This document shows, in pieces, positions 6,976 through 33,962 of a DNA stretch of 64,000 nucleotides; the first letter of the stretch is position 1; the number at the start of each line of letters is the position of its first letter. The translations under genes and the position numbers were made by a program. Source of the DNA: Synechococcus sp. PCC 6312. Lineage in GTDB: Bacteria; Cyanobacteriota; Cyanobacteriia; Thermosynechococcales; Thermosynechococcaceae. The stretch covers positions 2,109,501 through 2,173,500 of the forward strand of contig NC_019680.1 in assembly GCF_000316685.1 (NCBI RefSeq), given 5' to 3'. A model generated the notes under the pieces. It was not told where the DNA came from. It saw only the letters and a list, made by a program, of their open reading frames with translations, and ran no database searches.

Positions 6976-9438
6976 TTAGCTGGGAGAGGGCAGCAAAGGT
7001 TCAATCAGATCAATCAGGGTTTCAAACTGAAATTGCCGGGCCATCACGCTTAAGGGAGCTTGAAGATGCAGATAGTGGGGGGGAAGTTCCTCAATGAATG
7101 ACAGGATAGATTGATTATCGGCCTCAAGGGCGGCGGTATAGACCTGGGACAACCATTCTGAAGCTAGTCCTGAGAGTTGCTCTGTGGTGAGGGCTTGATC
7201 GGGGGACAGGGAGAGGGAGGGAGTGGAGTCTTCGTAGATATAGGTCACTCCCAGATGTTTGGTCAGGGCATCAAAGATGGTGTGTTCGGCAAAGGGTTTC
7301 CGCAAAAAGTCATCACAACCGGCCGAGAGGATAATTGCCTGTTCTTCCTCTAGGACACTGGCTGTGAGAGCAATGACCGCAGTTGCATGACCTTTGGTAG
7401 TGGCTTTGATCTGCTTAGTTGCTTCATAGCCATCCATGACCGGCATCCGCATATCCATCCAAATCAGATGGGGTTCCCAGACATCCCAAATGGCTACGGC
7501 TTCTTGGCCATTGACAGCTTCTTTCATCGCAAACCCTAAAGGCTCAAGCAGTTTAATCAATAGCTTGCGGTTGACTTCTTGGTCATCAACAACGAGGATG
7601 CGATACCGGGCCTGGCCGGGAGCTAGGGCTTTGACCTGTTTTTTGCCTTCAGCACTATCCCGAATGGTGCCTTGCCCGAGTTTGACGGGTATTTGCAGAT
7701 GAAACTGTGTCCCGAGTCCGATTTGACTTTTGACCTGAATATCGCCCCCCATCAGTTGGACAAATTTGCGGCTAATACTGAGTCCCAGGCCTGTTCCTTC
7801 TTGTTTTTCCCGGCCGGCTTGACCTTGGGTAAAGGGTTCAAAGAGTTGGCTCAATTCCTCAGGACTAATGCCCACACCAGTATCTCCAACCGTAATTTCC
7901 AGTTGCCAAGTTTTCGGGTCAGGGGTTGGTTCACTCTTGGACTGGAGCCAGACGCGGCCAGCGGGGGTGAATTTGATCCCATTGCTGAGGAGGTTAATCA
8001 AGACTTGCCGCAACTTCATTTCATCGGTTTGGACATAGCGGACGAGATCCGGACTCCGTGAAAAAACCAAGTCCAGGCCAGCATTCGTCGCGCGCAAGTG
8101 CAACATATCTTCAAGATCATTGAGTAGGCGAATCAGGTCAAAGTTTTGGGGGTTAAAGGTGGCTTTGTTGGCTTCGAGTTTAGAGAGGTCAAGAATATTA
8201 TTGATTAATGTGAGTAAATAATCGCCACTCCGATAGATGATTCCGACATTTTCATATTGGGATGGTGAGAGTTCTTTGCTCCGTAACATCAGTTGGGAAA
8301 AGCCTAAAACTGCATTTAGGGGGGATCGTAGTTCATGACTCATGTTGGCAATAAAGGCACTTTTGGCCTGGTTGGCTGCTTCGGCTTTAGCAGCGAGATT
8401 TTTGGCGTTGGCTTCACTGGTCTGGAGGGCATCGGTGCGATCTAAAACCCGTTGTTCTAATTCCTCATTGAGTTGACTGAGTCGCCATTCCGCTTGATGA
8501 TTTTCAGCCACGACACCCAGCACCACTAAAACTGTCACCGCCATCACGCCAATAAATAACTGCAACAGTAACAGGGATTGACTTTCCTCAAAAAGCCGAT
8601 AAAAGGTTCCCAGCTTATAGGTGGTGGAGACAGCAGCAACAGTGGCAGTCAGGGCAACAAGTAAGGTGGTTACTCTAGCCGGGAAGCGAAACGAACACCA
8701 AATCAAGGGCGGAAATAGTAAATACTCAAGCGGCTGTCCCAGACCAAAGGCAAGGTAAAGAATCAGGCCCTCACAGATCAGGATCATCCCTAGTTCGTTG
8801 AGGTTGCCCATGCGCGTCGAGGGGTTGAGAGCAGGCCAGGCCTGGGATTTCTTAGAAAGCCACGTATAAAAAACCGGCGCAATCACGAGAACTCCAATAC
8901 TATCCCCAATCCACCAGTTGGCAAAAAATTGGGGGGCATTATGAACGGCGATGACTCCAGAGGCAAACACTAAGCCAACTCCGGTTAGAGATTGAATGAG
9001 TGTCCCGGTAAATAAGGCGCAAATCGTAAAAATAACGACATTCCGTACAGTTCGCCAAGGTTCGTTGGTGCCAAGCAATTGTCGCAGAATAGTCACGGTT
9101 AGCAGTACGCCCAAGGTGATGCCCATTGTACCGATGAGCGCGCTCCCGAGCGGATCGGCCTTAACCCCCCAATTAACCAGCAAAGCTCCGAGCGTGACTC
9201 CCAACCACCGTGATCGCCCCCAGGTCAGTAAGCCCCCCACCGTAATCCCTGCCCCAGGCCAGAAGGGAGAACCATTGATTGCATCCAGAATCGGAAGTCT
9301 TTTGAGCACAAGCCAGCAGGCACCAGTATAGAGAAGGGAGATCACGGCAATCTCTAGCCACCAGCGGGGCCGGTCTAATTCCAGTCCCAGGGATTTGAGC
9401 CAAGGTTGAGTCCGGTCAACAATGTGGGGGGCTGACAT
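6976..9438 (-). CDS. hybrid sensor histidine kinase with MASE1-type membrane sensor
   Basis: An 820-residue protein. The first ~310 residues are strongly hydrophobic with about eight helices and fit a MASE1 sensor. A coiled linker follows, then a HisKA domain with phospho-acceptor His in NMSHELRSPLNAVLGFS. The HATPase_c domain has an N-box (LINLLSNGIKFTP), GDTGVGIS and GTGLGLSIS. A receiver domain has RILVVDDQEVNRKLL and Asp in WMDMRMPVMDGYEAT. The ~90-residue C-terminal tail is helical and unassigned. The gene is followed after 24-70 bp by the REC-PAS-GGDEF gene, which suggests membrane sensing linked to c-di-GMP output. The signal is unknown. Confidence 0.92.
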   Translation of the reverse strand: MSAPHIVDRTQPWLKSLGLELDRPRWWLEIAVISLLYTGACWLVLKRLPILDAINGSPFWPGAGITVGGLLTWGRSRWLGVTLGALLVNWGVKADPLGSALIGTMGITLGVLLTVTILRQLLGTNEPWRTVRNVVIFTICALFTGTLIQSLTGVGLVFASGVIAVHNAPQFFANWWIGDSIGVLVIAPVFYTWLSKKSQAWPALNPSTRMGNLNELGMILICEGLILYLAFGLGQPLEYLLFPPLIWCSFRFPARVTTLLVALTATVAAVSTTYKLGTFYRLFEESQSLLLLQLFIGVMAVTVLVVLGVVAENHQAEWRLSQLNEELEQRVLDRTDALQTSEANAKNLAAKAEAANQAKSAFIANMSHELRSPLNAVLGFSQLMLRSKELSPSQYENVGIIYRSGDYLLTLINNILDLSKLEANKATFNPQNFDLIRLLNDLEDMLHLRATNAGLDLVFSRSPDLVRYVQTDEMKLRQVLINLLSNGIKFTPAGRVWLQSKSEPTPDPKTWQLEITVGDTGVGISPEELSQLFEPFTQGQAGREKQEGTGLGLSISRKFVQLMGGDIQVKSQIGLGTQFHLQIPVKLGQGTIRDSAEGKKQVKALAPGQARYRILVVDDQEVNRKLLIKLLEPLGFAMKEAVNGQEAVAIWDVWEPHLIWMDMRMPVMDGYEATKQIKATTKGHATAVIALTASVLEEEQAIILSAGCDDFLRKPFAEHTIFDALTKHLGVTYIYEDSTPSLSLSPDQALTTEQLSGLASEWLSQVYTAALEADNQSILSFIEELPPHYLHLQAPLSVMARQFQFETLIDLIEPLLPSPS

Positions 9439-10770: not shown

Positions 10771-11784
10771 TTACTGGTCAAGTTGAATCCGAGGATCGAC
10801 AAACTTTAGTAATAAATCCGCCAATAAGTTTCCGAGGATCAACATCACGGCTCCGATCATTAAGCTGGCCATGACGAGATATAAATCTTGTACCTGAACT
10901 GCTTGTAAAATTAATCGCCCCAGGCCTGGCCAGTTAAAAAAGTATTCGGCAATAAAAGCCCCACTGAGTAATCCGGCAAATTCAAACCCTAACAACGTAA
11001 TTAAAGGATTGATTGCATTGCGGAGGGCATGAACATAGATGACTCGATGTTCGGGCAAGCCTTTGGCCCGGGCCGTTTGGATATAGTTTTGTCGCAAGAC
11101 ATCCAGTAAATTGCCCCGCATTAACCGTTGTAACCCGGCAAAGCTGGTAATACTCAACGCTAAAGTCGGTAAAATCAAATGCCAGCCAATATCTAGCACC
11201 TTGCCAAGGCCTGTGAAGTCCGCATAATCAATACTGGTCATATTCCCGACAGGAAACAAGGGCATACTCTGAGCTAAGAATAATAACAATAATGCGGCAA
11301 CAAAACTGGGAAACCCTTGGGCCAGATAACTTACCACCTGCAAGACCCGGTCTGCCCACCGATTTTGATTCACCGCCGCCACAATCCCCAAGGGAATCCC
11401 AATCCCCCACGTCACCAGAATAGAACTAAACGCTAAGAGCAAGGTGGCCGGAACCCGATCCCATAACAAAGACGCAACCGACCGTTGATAAATAAAACTC
11501 GTGCCAAAATTCCCTTGGGAAATAATCTGCCAGAGCCAGTGAAAATATTGTTCCGCGGCCGAGCGATTTAGGCCAAACTGTTGCTCCAACTCTGCTAACC
11601 GTTCCGGGGAAATGCGGGGATTTGCCTTGAGAGTATCCAGATAAGTGCCAGGGGCTAGCTGAATAATGGCAAAACTGAGGGCAGAGGCTAAAAATAAGGT
11701 CAGCAGGGCCTGGGCCAAGCGTTGGATAATATAAAGCGTGGTTTCCTGTCTCAAAAATTGTTTAACGAGCCTGACCCATCCCAT
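10771..11784 (-). CDS. ABC transporter permease, DppB/OppB type
   Basis: A 337-residue inner-membrane permease of the peptide/nickel (PepT) class. Visible are an N-terminal helix (LAQALLTLFLASALSFAII), the periplasmic loop with LAELEQQFGLN, further helices from about residue 110, and the cytoplasmic EAA-type loop ARAKGLPEHRVIYVHALRNAINPL that contacts the ATPase. No partner permease (DppC), ATPase or binding protein is adjacent, as is common for scattered cyanobacterial Opp components. The ATG at 11784 shares its CATG with the start of the divergent DUF3593 gene, so the true start could be a few codons inside. Confidence 0.9.
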   Translation of the reverse strand: MGWVRLVKQFLRQETTLYIIQRLAQALLTLFLASALSFAIIQLAPGTYLDTLKANPRISPERLAELEQQFGLNRSAAEQYFHWLWQIISQGNFGTSFIYQRSVASLLWDRVPATLLLAFSSILVTWGIGIPLGIVAAVNQNRWADRVLQVVSYLAQGFPSFVAALLLLFLAQSMPLFPVGNMTSIDYADFTGLGKVLDIGWHLILPTLALSITSFAGLQRLMRGNLLDVLRQNYIQTARAKGLPEHRVIYVHALRNAINPLITLLGFEFAGLLSGAFIAEYFFNWPGLGRLILQAVQVQDLYLVMASLMIGAVMLILGNLLADLLLKFVDPRIQLDQ

Positions 11785-12088
11785 GGATGTTAATACCCTA
11801 TTTGCCTTGTCATTGTTTCCCTTTCTTGGCTTTCTCTATTTTTTAACCAAAACCCCAACCATGCCCCGGCTCGCGTTAATGGGATTTTATGGCACGTTAG
11901 TCTTTGTTGCCGTCACAATTCCAGCCGGACTCTATGCCTTACGGGTTTATCATACCTCCTTAGCGAATGTGGATTGGTTGCATGGGGCCGCAGAAGCTTT
12001 TTTGACCGTAGCCAATATTTTCGTTGTCCTCGGATTTCGCCAGGCCCTGCGCGCGGTTCCGACTCCCGCTGATCCACCGAAGTCTTAA
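11783..12088 (+). CDS. DUF3593 family membrane protein
   Basis: A 101-residue hydrophobic protein beginning MDVNTLFALSLFPFLGFLYFLTK, followed by MPRLALMGFYGTLVFVAVTIPAG. This matches the DUF3593 family of cyanobacteria and plastid-bearing organisms as I remember it. Three membrane helices are visible (about residues 5-22, 32-52 and 65-88). The function is not known. An in-frame ATG at 11738 lies inside the divergent permease and lacks family resemblance, so it is not used. The exonuclease gene follows after 15 bp, probably in the same transcript. Confidence 0.82.
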   Translation: MDVNTLFALSLFPFLGFLYFLTKTPTMPRLALMGFYGTLVFVAVTIPAGLYALRVYHTSLANVDWLHGAAEAFLTVANIFVVLGFRQALRAVPTPADPPKS

Positions 12089-16427: not shown

Positions 16428-17741
16428 CTAACTTGCTAGATAATCAAATTTACTGAATTTATTTGATTCCATTAAAATCGCTCTATTATTCTCATTATCA
16501 AATAAATCTTTAATAATTGCCTTGACTACAGGAACACTAACAGCATTTCCAAGTTGCTTATAAGCGGCATGATCCTCATGATGAATTGCAAATGTCTCGG
16601 GAAATCCTTGCAGTCTTGCACATTCACGGGGGGTAATTCTTCTAATCCGATCTTGATGAATTACTCCAATGCGACTAGCGTCAGAAGAGGTTAAGGTAAT
16701 TGAAATACTATCAGGATCCAATATTTTAAATATCTCAAAAGACATATTTCCACAAATAGGATTGAATTTTCCATTATGTTCCTTGAGGTATCCCTTTTCA
16801 ATGAGTGACTGAACTAAATCATAAAGATGATCATGATTAAAAAATGTTTGAATTTGATCAAGAGTTAAACTTTTTCCATCTTGATGTTTTCCAAAGGCTT
16901 TTAAGCGGCGGTTTGATATTAGTGCATTCATGAAATCTCGCTCATCTTGAGTACATTTACCCTTCAACCCTAAGTCCCAGGAGTGAATCGAATTTCCTCC
17001 TCGGAAGTCAATGAGTCGAACTCCATACAGTTTCTCAATTTTGTAACCCACTGCTTTCAACAATTGTTGCTCAAAGTTCCTGGAAACATAATAATTCTCA
17101 GAAACCTGTGTCTCGAGGATATCTTTTACTTTTATTACGGATAGGCTTTCATCAAACAAGCTTGGCTGAACGATATGTTGCTTAAATGAATGGGAATCAA
17201 TAGCTCCACGATCCGACTGAATTGTCAAGATAGGATATTGATGAAGAAGTCCAATAATATAGATACGGACTCTATTTTGAGCTAAGCTAAAATTACTACT
17301 GTTTAGAAGAAGATAATTAGTTTTGTACCCTAGCTTTTCTAATGAATGAAGAATGGTTTGAAAAGTTCTTCCACGATCATGAGTAGTTAATCCGCGCACA
17401 TTTTCAAGCAGAAATCCTTTAGGCTGACACTGTTCAAGGATGCGTTCTATTTCAAAAAAAAGAGTTCCTCGAGTATCTCCAAACCCCTTTTGTTTTCCAG
17501 CATGAGAGAATGGTTGGCACGGAAAGCCTGCGAGCATAAAGTCAAACTTTGGAATTTCAGAGACCTGTCGAATATCACCTTGAGGCACTTCATTGAAATT
17601 GAGAGCATAAGTCTCTTTTGCTTTCCGATCAATTTCTGAACTCAGAACACATTTTGATTCCAGACCAAGTTGCTGACAAGCTTGCTCAAGCCCTAACCGC
17701 ATTCCACCGATACCAGCAAAGAGATCAATAAACCGTATCAT
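16428..17741 (-). CDS. DNA (cytosine-5-)-methyltransferase of a type II restriction-modification system
   Basis: A 437-residue C5 methyltransferase with the motifs in canonical order: I (IDLFAGIGGMRLGLEQA), IV (LAGFPCQPFSHAGKQ, catalytic Cys), VI (FLLENVRGL), VIII (QNRVRIYIIG), a target-recognition stretch of about 180 residues, then IX (RRITPRECARLQGFP) and X (YKQLGNAVSVPV). It overlaps the 3' end of the restriction gene by four bases (ATGA), so the two are translationally coupled. Base composition is clearly more AT-rich than the flanking GT4 and hemB genes, consistent with horizontal acquisition. The recognition sequence cannot be read from the protein. Confidence 0.95.
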   Translation of the reverse strand: MIRFIDLFAGIGGMRLGLEQACQQLGLESKCVLSSEIDRKAKETYALNFNEVPQGDIRQVSEIPKFDFMLAGFPCQPFSHAGKQKGFGDTRGTLFFEIERILEQCQPKGFLLENVRGLTTHDRGRTFQTILHSLEKLGYKTNYLLLNSSNFSLAQNRVRIYIIGLLHQYPILTIQSDRGAIDSHSFKQHIVQPSLFDESLSVIKVKDILETQVSENYYVSRNFEQQLLKAVGYKIEKLYGVRLIDFRGGNSIHSWDLGLKGKCTQDERDFMNALISNRRLKAFGKHQDGKSLTLDQIQTFFNHDHLYDLVQSLIEKGYLKEHNGKFNPICGNMSFEIFKILDPDSISITLTSSDASRIGVIHQDRIRRITPRECARLQGFPETFAIHHEDHAAYKQLGNAVSVPVVKAIIKDLFDNENNRAILMESNKFSKFDYLAS

Positions 17742-26093: not shown

Positions 26094-26828
26094 GTGGCCA
26101 GTGTTCAAGAACTTTTTTATGCCTTAGAGCAATGGGCCAATCAAATTGTTGTGGCTCAACTCACTGACCTCAATCCTGTTAGCATTGCCATTATTTTTAT
26201 GGCCGGATTACTCACCAGCCTTACCCCCTGTACCCTTTCGATGTTGCCGATCACCATTGGCTATATTGGCGGGTATAACGCGGAAAATCGCCTACAAGCA
26301 GCTAAACAATCGGCCTGGTTTGCCCTGGGTTTAGCCACAACCTTAGCGATTTTGGGAATTATTGCAGCGTTGGCGGGAAAAATCTACGGCCAAGTGGGGC
26401 CGGGGCTAACCATTGTGGTCAGTTTAGTGGCGATCATCATGGGCTTAAATTTGCTCAATGCTTTGCCAATTACTTTACCCACTTGGCCAGGCCTGGAGGA
26501 ACTTCCTGAGCGGGTTCCCAAGGGATTGAGATCCTATGTGCTAGGAGCAAGTTTTGGCCTGGTGGCGGCTCCCTGTAGTACTCCCGTATTGGCAACTCTC
26601 TTGGCCTGGGTGGCAGCGAATCAAAAACCTGTGGTCGGAGCCGGATTATTACTTGCCTATACAGTTGGTTATGTGTTGCCTCTGATCATTGCGGGTACAT
26701 TTACAGCCAGTATCAAAAAGCTCCTAGCCCTGCGTCAATGGTCGGCCTGGATTACCCCAGCGAGTGGTGTGCTATTGGTCGGTTTTGGCGTGGTTTCCTT
26801 AGCTGTGCGGCTATTGCCGAGGGTCTAG
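26094..26828 (+). CDS. ccdA: cytochrome c biogenesis protein CcdA
   Basis: A membrane thiol-disulfide transporter that passes electrons across the thylakoid or plasma membrane for c-type cytochrome maturation. It has six hydrophobic helices. The two redox cysteines are in SLTPCTLSMLP (first helix) and AAPCSTPVLATL (fourth helix), the standard CcdA pair. I take GTG 26094 (VASVQELFYALE), preceded by TGAGG at 26083, over the more upstream in-frame TTG at 26061. It is followed after 3 bp by cobM on the same strand, so cotranscription is likely. Confidence 0.92.
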   Translation: MASVQELFYALEQWANQIVVAQLTDLNPVSIAIIFMAGLLTSLTPCTLSMLPITIGYIGGYNAENRLQAAKQSAWFALGLATTLAILGIIAALAGKIYGQVGPGLTIVVSLVAIIMGLNLLNALPITLPTWPGLEELPERVPKGLRSYVLGASFGLVAAPCSTPVLATLLAWVAANQKPVVGAGLLLAYTVGYVLPLIIAGTFTASIKKLLALRQWSAWITPASGVLLVGFGVVSLAVRLLPRV

Positions 26829-26831
26829 ATT

Positions 26832-27614
26832 TTGGCAACGGGTAAACTCTATCTAATTGGCGCGGGGCCTGGGGATCCTGACCTATTGACAGTGAAAGCT
26901 CAACGCTTGATTACCCAGGCCAATGTGATTTTTTATGCCAACTCCCTTATTCCCCCGGAAATCCTCAATTTAGCCCAGGCCGACTGTGAACTCATCCCCA
27001 CTGCAGATCAGATTCTAGAAACTGTCCTACCCCTAATGATCGAGCGCGTCCAGGCCGGGCAATTAGTCCTCCGTTTACAATCCGGTGATCCATGTCTCTA
27101 CAGCACCCTCCACGAACAACTCCAAGCCCTAGAGCAAGCAAACATCCCTATAGAAGTAATTCCTGGAATTAGTGCCTTTCAACTAGCAGCGGCCAAGCTC
27201 CAAGTCGAACTCACCATTCCCGAACTGGTTCAAACAATTATCCTCACCCGTATCAGTGGCCGCACCCAAGTTCCAGCCAAGGAAGAATTAGCTCACCTTG
27301 CCGCCCACCAGGCCAGCCTATGTCTATACCTCAGTGCCCGCCATGTTGAAAAAGCTCAAGCTGAATTACTTGTTCACTATCCCCCTGATACCCCTGTGGC
27401 GATTTGTTTTCGGTTGGGCTGGCCTGATGAGCAGATTCATGTGGTTCCCCTCACCGAGATGGCCAACGTCACCCAGACCCATCATCTTTATCGAACAACG
27501 TTGTATTTAGTGACTCCGGCCTTACGACCTGATCGGGGCAACCGTTCGCAACTCTATCACCCTAACCATCCACGTTTGTTCCGCAGCCAGGCCATGAATC
27601 AGACTCAACCATGA
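26832..27614 (+). CDS. cobM: precorrin-4 C11-methyltransferase
   Basis: A 260-residue SAM-dependent tetrapyrrole methylase that methylates C-11 of (cobalt-)precorrin-4 in vitamin B12 synthesis (CobM in the aerobic route, CbiF in the anaerobic one). Motifs are LIGAGPGDPDLLT, LRLQSGDPCLYS and VIPGISAFQLAAA. The start is TTG at 26832, 3 bp after ccdA. The last ~10 codons (SQAMNQTQP) run antisense through a decayed fragment of the VOC-family gene at 31910-32923, so the native C-terminus may have been replaced. The catalytic core is complete. Confidence 0.92.
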   Translation: MATGKLYLIGAGPGDPDLLTVKAQRLITQANVIFYANSLIPPEILNLAQADCELIPTADQILETVLPLMIERVQAGQLVLRLQSGDPCLYSTLHEQLQALEQANIPIEVIPGISAFQLAAAKLQVELTIPELVQTIILTRISGRTQVPAKEELAHLAAHQASLCLYLSARHVEKAQAELLVHYPPDTPVAICFRLGWPDEQIHVVPLTEMANVTQTHHLYRTTLYLVTPALRPDRGNRSQLYHPNHPRLFRSQAMNQTQP

Positions 27615-27690
27615 TCAGCATTTTGATAGAGGAGTCTGACGGATTACAGCCCAGAGCAAACACTCTACAACTACTCTGCCCCCTCAATGG
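27585..27690 (-). pseudogene. decayed fragment of the VOC-family gene at 31910-32923
   Basis: By eye, 27609-27690 aligns with 32729-32812 at roughly 84% identity, and the similarity continues weakly to 27587. Translated on the minus strand in the parental frame it reads EGAE*L*SVCSGL*SVRLLYQNADHG, then *V*FMAW. The intact gene reads EGAERLYGVRSGLQSVRLLHQNADHG, then LLRLMAW. At least five in-frame stops show it is dead. It covers the cobM 3' end in antisense. Confidence 0.8.
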
Positions 27691-27781
27691 ACACAATTAA
27701 CGACATGCGTTCGTAAATCCATGCTGTAGATCATCGCTCAATTCATGCTTTAACTTATTATTTGAAAATATTATATAGACC

Positions 27782-27887
27782 TATAGCATTACCCATTTAG
27801 AATTGAGCTAAGGACAAGTCAGAAAGCGCTTTTTAGTCAAGGCTGGGAAGATTTCTATTCACCCAGAACAGTCTGCGTAATGCTATA
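27782..27887. repeat. MITE-like inverted-repeat element, copy A
   Basis: A 106-bp segment bounded by perfect 11-bp terminal inverted repeats TATAGCATTAC / GTAATGCTATA. The ends start and finish in TA, as expected if the target is TA. A second copy lies at 37237-37340. The two share CAAGTCAGAAA near the left and CAGAACAGTCTG near the right end. No coding capacity. It occupies much of the 348-bp gap between cobM and metX. Confidence 0.7.
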
Positions 27888-27962
27888 AGACTTCGGTGCA
27901 TTATTTTTGGGATTTCTGCCACAACAGATTTACAGTTCTCAAAATGCTGAAAAAGAGAGGAC

Positions 27963-29036
27963 TTAATGCCAGGCCAGGGTTGGGGTAAACAAATCCGATT
28001 GACGCTGACGAAACTCTAATACGCTCTGATTCAGTTCGGTCATATTAATCAAAAAGGCATCATGGCCGTGGGGGGAGTTCAGCCAGGTTAGTTGGGCATT
28101 GGGAATCAACTCTGCCAATTCTTCCTGTTCGCTGGGGGGATAGAGAATATCCGTATCAATGCCAATGACTAGGGTCGGTTGCGAGATGCTTTGGAGAACC
28201 TGAGGATAGGATTTATCAGCCCGAGTTAAATCATGGCGATCCATGGCCTGGGTCAGGGTGACATAGCAGTTGGCATCAAACCGTTCAACGAACTTTTCCC
28301 CTTGGTAGTTTAAATAGTTGGCAATCCTAAAATCATTGGCCTGGAAGGTTCTGCCATAACGCATTTGAAAACTATCCCACGACCGATAGGTATTCATGGC
28401 GATCATCCGCGCCACCGCCAGGCCTCGGGCCGGAGTTTGGGTGTAGTAGCCGTTTTGCCAGTGGGGATCTGCATAAATCGCTTGCCGTTGGGCCTCATGC
28501 AACCCAATACACCAGGCCGAGTGTTGCCCAGAGACCGCAATCGGAACAATCGCCCTGACCATTTCCGGATATAAAACCGCCCACTCCAAGACCTGCATCC
28601 CGCCTAGGGAGCCACCGATGGCTAGTCGTAACTGCTTCACCCCCAAGGCTTTGAGTAACTCGGCCTGGAGATGCACCATGTCGCGAATCGTAATCGCGGG
28701 GAATTCCGGGCCATAGGGAGTTTGGGTTAACGGGTTAATCGAAGTCGGGCCGGTCGTGCCATAGCAACTGCCGAGAATATTGCTACAAATAATAAAATCT
28801 TGGGTCGGATCCAAACAGCGGCCTGGGCCTAACAAAGGTTCCCACCATTGCTCAACATCGGCAGATCCGGTAAAGGCATGGCAAACCAGCACCCCATTAT
28901 CGCCACTCGGATTAAGCTGACCCCAGGTTCGATAGGCCACTTGCACCCCGGTTAAGGTTCCCCCCAACTCTAAAGTCAAGGGCTGGGGATGCTGATAGAA
29001 CTGGGTTTCTGGCGAAATGATGGCCTGGTAACGCAT
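27963..29036 (-). CDS. metX: homoserine O-acetyltransferase
   Basis: This enzyme acetylates homoserine with acetyl-CoA, giving the substrate for MetY. It has an alpha/beta-hydrolase fold with nucleophile Ser in IGGSLGGMQVLEWA, GVLVCHAFTGSADVEQWW in the N-terminal part, an Asp in VIGIDTDILYPPSEQ, and the C-terminal His in NSPHGHDAFL. The 357-residue length is normal. It starts 2 bp after the metY stop on the same strand, so the two form a tight operon. Succinyltransferase specificity, which exists in this family, cannot be ruled out by eye. Confidence 0.93.
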   Translation of the reverse strand: MRYQAIISPETQFYQHPQPLTLELGGTLTGVQVAYRTWGQLNPSGDNGVLVCHAFTGSADVEQWWEPLLGPGRCLDPTQDFIICSNILGSCYGTTGPTSINPLTQTPYGPEFPAITIRDMVHLQAELLKALGVKQLRLAIGGSLGGMQVLEWAVLYPEMVRAIVPIAVSGQHSAWCIGLHEAQRQAIYADPHWQNGYYTQTPARGLAVARMIAMNTYRSWDSFQMRYGRTFQANDFRIANYLNYQGEKFVERFDANCYVTLTQAMDRHDLTRADKSYPQVLQSISQPTLVIGIDTDILYPPSEQEELAELIPNAQLTWLNSPHGHDAFLINMTELNQSVLEFRQRQSDLFTPTLAWH

Positions 29037-29038
29037 CT

Positions 29039-30686
<1,648 letters not shown>

Positions 30687-31121
30687 ATGAGTAACTCCGT
30701 TGAACTGCCGCCAACCAGCCAGGATGAAAAAAATCCACCCAGGAAAAAGAACCTCAACCGGATTCGGGATCATTTGGCTAACGAGCGAACCTACCTGGCC
30801 TGGATGCGGAGTGCTGTGGCCCTGATGGGGTTTGGGGTGCTGATTGTGCGTTTACGGATTTTGCGGCCCCCTTTGGCCATTCAACCCCCGGGAAATGGTT
30901 GGCGTTTGGGTTTGGCCTTTGCGGTGGTGGGTCTGATTACTGTTTTGCTCTCAACGCAGCATTATTTTGTCGTGCGTGACGATATTGAAAACGATACCTA
31001 TGAGCCGCCCGACCGCTGGGTAATTATTTCCAGTTTGAGCATTATTCTGTTGGGCGTAGGGGTCTTTTACTATGTCTTTGCCGCACCCCTGGATGACCTC
31101 GGGACAATTGTGCTTGATTAA
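30687..31121 (+). CDS. DUF202/YidH-type small membrane protein
   Basis: A 144-residue protein. A polar N-terminus rich in Lys/Pro is followed by NRIRDHLANERTYLAWMRSAVALMGFGVLIVRL, the characteristic DUF202 opening. Two more membrane helices follow (about residues 75-93 and 118-138), for three in all. The family is widespread in bacteria and fungi and is of unknown function. It is a single gene on the plus strand with no close partner. Confidence 0.85.
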   Translation: MSNSVELPPTSQDEKNPPRKKNLNRIRDHLANERTYLAWMRSAVALMGFGVLIVRLRILRPPLAIQPPGNGWRLGLAFAVVGLITVLLSTQHYFVVRDDIENDTYEPPDRWVIISSLSIILLGVGVFYYVFAAPLDDLGTIVLD

Positions 31122-31280
31122 ATCCTCATCACTTAGAGTTGACGCGTTCCCAGGCCTGGGTAGGTTTACTGTCAGCAATCGATCAACGATTTGAACTTGG
31201 ATCGGAGCAGTTTTGAATTGCCACTCATGATATAGTCTCATAACACTATCGAGTTACGGGATTTTGAAGGAGGTATCCGC

Positions 31281-31889
31281 ATGAGTCAGGTTTTAGCAGA
31301 GGTTTTGGCGGCAAATCAGAGCTATGTTGAGAATTTTGGCGATAAGGGTGAATTACCGTTACCCCCAGGCCGACGTTTTGCGATTTTGACCTGCATGGAT
31401 GCCCGTCTGGATCCGGCGAAATATGCTGGCCTGGCAGAGGGAGATGCCCATGTGATTCGCAATGCAGGAGGACGGGCCAGTGATGATGCGATTCGCTCCT
31501 TGATTATTTCCTACAAACTTTTAGGCACACGGGAATGGTTTGTGATTCATCACACCAATTGCGGCATGGAGCTTTTTACCGATGAGATTATTCGGGGCCT
31601 CCTCAGCCAAAGTTTAGAAACTGCAATTGTTGATGAGTCTGGTTGGCGGGATGTAGGTCAAGAGCTTAAGTCTGAATTTGCCGATGAGGCTCGGTTTATT
31701 GATTGGTTGACATTTACGGATTTGGCTAAAAGTGTAGTTGCTGATGTTCAACGAATTCGCCGTCATCCCCTTGTCCCCAGCAATATCCCGATTTATGGGT
31801 TTATTTACGATGTCAAAACTGGGCAGTTAATTGAAGTTCCTAAAGCCACCGAAGCAGGTCAAGTTAGGGCTGGATTTTCACAACTCTAG
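31281..31889 (+). CDS. beta-carbonic anhydrase-like protein
   Basis: A 202-residue protein with the beta-class zinc ligands in order: Cys and the Asp-Arg pair in [12 protein letters not shown], then His and Cys in [12 protein letters not shown]. The [18 protein letters not shown] segment is also conserved. It is likely to hydrate CO2 or play a related role, possibly in carbon concentration or pH balance. The short form resembles Rv1284-type enzymes rather than the carboxysomal CcaA. An excellent AAGGAGGT ribosome site lies 7-8 bases before the ATG. It is convergent with the VOC gene. Confidence 0.9.
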
Positions 31890-31909
31890 AATATATTCCT
31901 GGATTGTAT

Positions 31910-32923
31910 TTAACCCACAAGTGTCCAAAAATAGCCATCAGGAGCCATAAAGGAAAAGCTGGGTTCTTGAAACTCATTCTGAATAATTTCTGTGACTTGG
32001 GTGGCTGCACTAGCTTTAACCCGCTCCCAAAACTCGGAAATGGGTTGAACTCGATAGGTATAAAGAGATATCCCCAACTGGCCTGGGCGTGACTCTAGCA
32101 GCTTATTTTCTAAAGCCATGGCCTGGGGAAAGCGAATCACTTTGAGGCGACCGGATCGGACTTGACTTATATCTGTTACCGATGAGCGTGGATCGTCAAA
32201 ATCAGTGGTGTAGTAATAATCTCCAGGCCCCAGATCCAAAATCGGTCGAGCAGCGGGGTTATCTTCATAGCGATCCACCAGGCCATCCCGTGCCCGCAAT
32301 AGTCCTAAAACTTGATCATAAAAATCCAGCACCTCGCTACTATCATCTTGAATCACCAGGCCAACATGGGTGATTTGACTCGTTTGGAAAAAAGAATGGG
32401 GGTTAACGGAGCCGTAGTGAGGTAATTGATAGTTAAATCGCTGGAAGAAAACGTGACGGGTCAATGGGGTCAGCCACAAACTTTCACGCACTCCCAATAA
32501 TGGGTCAACCCAGGCCCGGGCAGGAGTAGCTGAAGCATAAATTTGACTCCAAAGAGGCTCGGTGTAGCGATAGGTATCAGGAGATCGCTGGGCCAGAAGT
32601 TCAAAGTGATTGAGAAGATTCAAGAGATCATTGGTTAAAGTCGTTCCCCAGCGATTCCCGATCACCTTCATTGAAGCCAAACCCAGGCCAGGCCCCGTCG
32701 GGCTTTCCCAGGCCATGAGTCGAAGTAAACCATGATCGGCATTTTGATGAAGCAGTCTGACGGATTGCAGCCCAGAGCGCACACCATACAACCGCTCTGC
32801 ACCCTCAGGAGATAACCGTCCAATCTCACCGATCCGATAACCAAACTGCTGCCAATACTGCACCTGAGCCAGTAAATCCAGTGTGCCAATCCCCACCTCA
32901 TAAATGCCTTGAATCGTTCCCAT
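31910..32923 (-). CDS. VOC-superfamily (glyoxalase/dioxygenase-like) protein
   Basis: A 337-residue protein with two vicinal-oxygen-chelate-like modules. The first begins GIYEVGIGTLDLLAQVQYWQQFGY. The second, near residue 185, begins THVGLVIQDDSSEVLDFYDQVLGLL, the usual start of a VOC repeat, and the chain ends FMAPDGYFWTLVG. Metal-ligand residues are not certain. I use ATG 32923 (MGTIQG) rather than the GTG/ATG at 32935. Substrate unknown. A decayed piece of this gene, covering codons for about residues 40-75, lies at 27585-27690. Confidence 0.78.
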   Translation of the reverse strand: MGTIQGIYEVGIGTLDLLAQVQYWQQFGYRIGEIGRLSPEGAERLYGVRSGLQSVRLLHQNADHGLLRLMAWESPTGPGLGLASMKVIGNRWGTTLTNDLLNLLNHFELLAQRSPDTYRYTEPLWSQIYASATPARAWVDPLLGVRESLWLTPLTRHVFFQRFNYQLPHYGSVNPHSFFQTSQITHVGLVIQDDSSEVLDFYDQVLGLLRARDGLVDRYEDNPAARPILDLGPGDYYYTTDFDDPRSSVTDISQVRSGRLKVIRFPQAMALENKLLESRPGQLGISLYTYRVQPISEFWERVKASAATQVTEIIQNEFQEPSFSFMAPDGYFWTLVG

Positions 32924-33085
32924 ACCTCGCCTCAAGCCAGTTTTAGAGTCTTAGTCATCCAACACCTAGAGCCGTCCCTGAATTAGCCCAGACTTAACCA
33001 TTGCATAAACTTCAGTCTGTATGCGAGAATCAAAAACTAATGTACAGTAACTCACTCGGTTTTTAGTATTTTAAGTAGGTCGTTT

Positions 33086-33325
33086 ATGTCTTTATCTCTA
33101 TCCCAGCCTCCTATCTCTCAACAGCGTGTCCCCATCACCCACCAGGCCTGGAGTTGGCCAAGACGGTTTTGGTGGTCATTCCAATCCTTGTTAACGGTTG
33201 CCAAACTTTTACCTCTGATTTTTGCCAGCCTTGTCTATCTGGGCCTATGGTCTTTGGGACGGCAACTCACGGGTAAGAAAAAAGCAACCTTGGCCCCATA
33301 CCCCCAATATTCATCCCAAATTTGA
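33086..33325 (+). CDS. small hypothetical membrane protein
   Basis: A 79-residue frame with a Trp-rich stretch (HQAWSWPRRFWWSF) followed by one membrane helix (about residues 38-60, VAKLLPLIFASLVYLGLWSLG) and a basic tail. It is preceded by a 150-bp gap suitable for a promoter and a weak AGGT ribosome site. The product is plausible but unrecognised. The gene lies 49 bp before the CDF-like gene on the same strand. Confidence 0.5.
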   Translation: MSLSLSQPPISQQRVPITHQAWSWPRRFWWSFQSLLTVAKLLPLIFASLVYLGLWSLGRQLTGKKKATLAPYPQYSSQI

Positions 33326-33374
33326 GTTTTTCGTTATGCTCTGACATATTGGAACCCTCTGGGCAAGTTAAGTC

Positions 33375-33962
33375 ATGACCAAAAACATCGGGTTACGTCC
33401 CGCCATCCTGTTCGTGGGGCTTGCCAACCTCAGTTACTTTTTCGTGGAATTTTGGGTTGCCCGACACATCAACTCAGTTTCCCTATTTGCCGATAGTATT
33501 GATTTTCTCGAAGATGCCGCCGTTAATTTCCTCATCCTTGTTGCCTTAGGCTGGCCTGCAAAAACACGAGCATTTGTTGGGATGTTCCTCTCGGGTGTGC
33601 TGCTGATTCCGGCGATTGCATTGGCCTGGGCCGTCTGGCAGAAATTTGCTACCCCAACACCACCGGAACCTTGGTTATTGTCTGGCACTGGCCTGGGTGC
33701 GCTGGTTGTTAATCTGGTCTGTGCCTTTGTCATCTCTAAATATCGCCATCACGAGGGCAGTTTAGTTAAAGCGGCGTTTCTTTCGGCCCGGAATGATGCC
33801 TTGGCCAATATTGCGATTATCGGGGCTGGCCTGGTGACATTGCTCTGGTTATCTGGCTGGCCCGATTTAATTGTGGGGATTGGAATTTTAATCATGAATG
33901 CCGATGCTGCCAAGGCCATTTGGAAAGCGGCTAGAGATGAACACACCTTAGCTGAGCCTTAG
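33375..33962 (+). CDS. cation diffusion facilitator-like transporter, membrane domain only
   Basis: A 195-residue protein with five or six membrane helices. SLFADSIDFLEDAAVN corresponds to the CDF helix-2 metal-site region (usually SxSLxADxxHxxxD). ARNDALANIAIIGAGLV corresponds to helix 5, where the second Asp site normally lies. The C-terminal cytoplasmic dimerisation domain of standard CDF proteins is absent, so this is a short form. Divalent cation export is inferred. The helix-2 His is Asp here (ADSIDFLED), so specificity may differ from zinc transporters. Confidence 0.78.
   Translation: MTKNIGLRPAILFVGLANLSYFFVEFWVARHINSVSLFADSIDFLEDAAVNFLILVALGWPAKTRAFVGMFLSGVLLIPAIALAWAVWQKFATPTPPEPWLLSGTGLGALVVNLVCAFVISKYRHHEGSLVKAAFLSARNDALANIAIIGAGLVTLLWLSGWPDLIVGIGILIMNADAAKAIWKAARDEHTLAEP

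Follow-up and report, generated by a model that had tools for sequence, protein, structure and literature searches.

The 3' end of cobM in Synechococcus sp. PCC 6312 overlaps a decayed partial copy of a VOC-like gene located 5 kb away, and the last eight codons of cobM, together with its stop codon, lie within this fragment. The fragment is real, yet it is ordinary genome debris situated beside the remains of mobile elements. Our analysis concerned a stretch of 64,000 nucleotides (referred to below as the window), to which all positions given here refer unless another locus is named.

The VOC-like fragment and its donor gene

The features on which the comparison is based are as follows (position, strand, description):

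26832..27614, (+), cobM, precorrin-4 C11-methyltransferase, 260 codons as listed from TTG; TIGR01465
27588..27614, (+), cobM codons 253-260 (QAMNQTQP) plus the stop codon, inside the fragment
27587..27686, (-), degenerate partial copy of the VOC-like gene, corresponding to its residues 44-76 and interrupted by 5 stops; 83/100 identity
31910..32935, (-), intact VOC/glyoxalase-like gene (the donor), labelled from the PF00903 matches of its homologues
32708..32807, (-), donor stretch within the VOC-like gene, from the local alignment to the fragment

The best local alignment of 27587-27686 with 32708-32807 comprises 100 gapless columns with 83 identities. Its score (115) far exceeds those obtained when the query region was shuffled 2000 times with its dinucleotides preserved (mean 20.6, maximum 31), whereas the reverse complement scores 20; within the window, the blastn E-value of the pair is 1e-24. 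When positions 27560-27960 were used to query the host's own genome (3,720,499 bases in two contigs, E <= 0.001), the VOC site was the only other match to the fragment part (E 7e-23). The two stretches are directly oriented with a spacing of 5121 bases and, since the VOC frame reads from the minus strand in each of them, the fragment runs antisense to cobM. Read in that frame (residues 44-76), it gives EGAE*L*SVCSGL*SVRLLYQNADHG*V*FMAW. The fragment displays two hallmarks of a pseudogene fragment, namely resemblance to one living gene far beyond chance and a reading frame broken by five stops.

These results bear out most of what had been proposed in a sequence-only reading of this DNA, namely a decayed piece of a VOC gene (a single match in the own genome, with five stops) placed antisense through the end of cobM, the last codons of which it provides (codons 253-260 and the stop are inside 27587-27686). 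The alignment had been expected to surpass shuffled sequence, which it does. The site was correctly located, although the proposed interval (27585-27690) proved to be a few bases too wide.

The VOC label of the donor is used because its homologues match PF00903: this model was matched at E <= 0.1 by 20 of 22 aligned homologues (best 4.9e-6), while the donor protein itself reaches E 0.16 and 12.8 bits, below the curated cut-off of 20.6. The predicted structure of the donor is of low confidence (mean pLDDT 64.4). The distribution of the gene is patchy. It was found, the own genome included, in 3 of the 39 genomes of the relatives search and in 38 of the 386 genomes of a phylum sample, 33 of these 38 belonging to one family (f23).

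Over the stretch covered by the fragment, the 31 homologous loci are 57-65% identical to the own gene, as compared with 51-59% for the fragment, so that the latter is nearer to the own VOC-like gene (83%) than to any homologue (<=59%). At the 17 sites where fragment and donor differ, the homologue majority agrees with the intact gene at 8, with the fragment at 3 and with neither at 6 (the homologues being about 61% identical there). These identities and the 8-versus-3 site agreement favour the fragment as the derived copy, which probably arose within the own lineage, in line with the local duplication envisaged in the sequence-only reading. The same data leave practically no room for two further explanations. 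Chance similarity was rejected, given a score of 115 against a shuffle maximum of 31, and descent from an unrelated VOC paralogue was rejected as well, as 83% identity to the own gene stands against 51-59% to the 31 homologues.

Comparison with the donor revealed changes in 15 of 33 codons (5 stops, 5 non-synonymous and 5 synonymous changes), and transitions account for 11 of the 17 base differences. When the same mutations were placed at random in a simulation, a mean of 1.35 stops was obtained, and five or more, as observed, had a P of 0.002; neutral decay alone does not account for this excess. The substitutions in the fragment have also created a perfect 8-bp inverted repeat (27599-27606/27632-27639) that the donor lacks. 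Inverted repeats of this length arose in 69 of 3000 simulations, so that a template-switch origin is no more than one possibility for it.

The C-terminus of CobM

The TIGR01465 match to CobM (E 4e-94) aligns residues 7-251 with positions 2-247 of the 247-position model. The family model therefore stops at residue 251, and the fragment-derived codons 253-260 are beyond it. In 34 of 35 CobM loci of relatives, the protein ends with LFR followed by 0-14 variable residues; the remaining locus (L044) is broken before the LFR end. A tail of the QAMNQTQP type was seen in none of the 35, and in a blastn search of the fragment against the relatives' CobM loci the own locus was the sole match. Comparison of CobM tails had been suggested as a check, and it did not refute the proposal that the tail may have been altered. 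As the altered part is past the conserved model, in a freely varying stretch, no functional effect on CobM would be expected from it, and the proposed change of the C-terminus can be retained only in this restricted sense.

The locus thus offers a clean small case of a scrap of one gene re-writing the end of another, and a warning against functional reading of C-terminal tails.

Regarding the wider neighbourhood, cobM-metX synteny was not seen in the 35 cobM loci of relatives (flanks mostly of 1.5 kb); at one of these loci (L020), cobM is preceded by DsbD. A CobM search of the genome contigs yielded four loci, none of them close.

Mobile-element remains and the origin of the fragment

The sequence-only reading had missed the immediate surroundings of the fragment, which adjoins an IS630-family relic that is in turn followed by a MITE-like repeat. 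The corresponding features, together with the two junctions of the fragment, are:

27587..27593, (+), left junction; the fragment begins precisely on CCAGGCC, an iterated heptamer of the own genome
27676..27776, (-), IS630-family relic (element end and transposase N-terminus); score 41; reads MIYSMDLRTHVVNC
27679..27685, (+), right junction; donor 32800-32806 and the IS read CACCCTC, the fragment now CCCCCTC
27781..27888, no strand assigned, MITE-like repeat with TATAGCATTAC terminal inverted repeats and 23 further genome matches

The score of the relic against the end of the IS630-family element compares with a maximum of 19 in 500 shuffles. Where the minus strand of the relic reads MIYSMDLRTHVVNC, the intact copies read MPYSMDLRTRVVTF. 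Five copies were compared and proved to be 99.2-100% identical to each other over the stretches aligned; their HTH part corresponds to PF01710 (HTH_Tnp_IS630; E 6.3e-36), which places the relic in the IS630 family. The relic ends abruptly at the start of the VOC fragment, with the 5' end of the transposase truncated, and the VOC and IS630 matches overlap in the final 11 bases of the VOC piece, where the 7-base word CACCCTC is common to donor and IS.

The account to which we attribute a slightly better than even chance is that a patch of about 100 bases from the VOC-like gene filled a deletion between the end of cobM and the interior of the IS, and later decayed without function. According to this account, DNA would have been lost from the cobM end to the interior of an IS630-family element, and the patch that sealed the gap would have come from the VOC-like gene 5 kb off, the copying strand having switched at short words in common (CCAGGCC at the left edge, where the microhomology is putative, and CACCCTC at the right one). 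The fragment would then have decayed, and cobM would terminate at the first in-frame stop met within it; the CobM tail, being free to vary in both length and sequence, presumably tolerates such replacement. The presence of a single extra copy in the own genome and the exact coincidence of the left edge with CCAGGCC are consistent with this filling of a gap. On the other hand, shared words of at least 7 bases were also encountered in 66 of 5000 random pairs of 21 x 21 base windows, and among 22 single-copy repeat ends CCAGGCC bounds just one, namely that of the fragment itself. The excess of stops over random placement and the newly formed 8-bp inverted repeat also count against this account.

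It is also quite conceivable, at somewhat below an even chance, that the fragment is a remnant of a larger or complete second VOC-like gene (e.g. from a 5 kb tandem duplication) that was hit by IS630 and mostly deleted. The direct orientation and the 5.1 kb spacing would suit a tandem duplication, and the relic does adjoin the fragment; however, no further VOC similarity was found within 27560-27960, and the VOC piece is joined to the interior of the IS rather than to its end, so that an additional deletion would be needed. Retention of the fragment as a useful cobM end, e.g. an RNA hairpin or terminator, is in our opinion highly improbable. The 8-bp inverted repeat, present in the fragment and absent from the donor, speaks in its favour, but the predicted RNA folding is ordinary (z-score -0.86, 40 of 200 shuffles being equally good), no terminator-like site was found within 27450-28000 and no Rfam match within 26700-33400, and the fragment is heavily decayed.

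A patch filling a deletion would resemble templated insertion (filler DNA) in that a short copy derives from a nearby locus and a short word common to donor and flank is found at one junction. Templated insertions at microhomology-joined breaks have, in the parts of the reports consulted, been described mainly from plants and other eukaryotes, whereas the present case concerns a cyanobacterium. The fragment is also similar to partial-gene-duplication pseudogenes: it is short, has diverged from its living source gene, is interrupted by stops and adjoins mobile-element debris. It differs from them in reaching into the end of another living gene, whose stop codon it provides.

Short scraps of this kind are not rare in the own genome. 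Together, the window and 19 sampled stretches (380 kb) yielded 11 single-copy repeat pairs with lengths of 40-800 bases, some of which may be gene paralogues; the fragment-donor pair is sixth by E-value. Besides the fragment, short, diverged, single-copy duplications of the same general sort were observed in the sampled stretches L099 (6416-6594 / 7034-7211) and L103 (6295-6441 / 11680-11829), the copies being within a few kb of each other.

The iterated heptamer CCAGGCC

The heptamer on which the fragment begins is strongly over-represented in the host DNA. It occurs 216 times in the window (14.3 expected) and 1157 times in 380 kb of the own genome (82 expected, an approximately 14-fold excess), divided evenly between the strands (577 versus 580), while HIP1 is represented in the same 380 kb by merely 3 copies. 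This excess was not seen in the sampled relatives, most of which have kept HIP1: across 15 stretches sampled in 13 relatives, CCAGGCC was present in 0-13 copies per 20 kb (2.5-10.4 expected), and HIP1 had 4-59 copies in 12 of the 15 stretches and none in the other three. One stretch of the own genome (L108; G000:C1:2800001-2820000) is exceptional in carrying 11 CCAGGCC per 20 kb, compared with 43-85 in the other 18, and perhaps consists of recently acquired DNA.

A role of CCAGGCC as a general boundary of duplications was rejected, since only 1 of 22 repeat ends (the fragment's own) had the heptamer near both copies, the corresponding figure for randomly chosen internal positions being 0.9%. 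Its position at the left edge of the fragment may therefore be a coincidence.

CCAGGCC resembles HIP1 and the alternate HIPs in being highly iterated in its own genome, where HIP1 is nearly absent. It differs from them in being non-palindromic, as the alternate HIPs of cyanobacteria are all described as palindromic in section 2.3 of Elhai (2015; PMC4390886), the main text of which does not contain CCAGG. A literature search for CCAGGCC or GGCCTGG in cyanobacteria, supplements being outside its scope, returned nothing relevant. We regard it as very unlikely that CCAGGCC has taken over the place of HIP1 and that its abundance provides words at which replication or repair changes template, so that short gene pieces like the present fragment are moved and gene ends re-written. 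If CCAGGCC had truly replaced HIP1, it would constitute a fresh test case for the role of HIP sequences.

The own genome encodes four C5 cytosine methyltransferases (PF00145), whose nearest named solved structures are HhaI- and HaeIII-type enzymes. One of them is a candidate for a relationship with the iterated heptamer:

16500-17738, C5 cytosine methyltransferase, PF00145; HhaI-like by nearest solved structure
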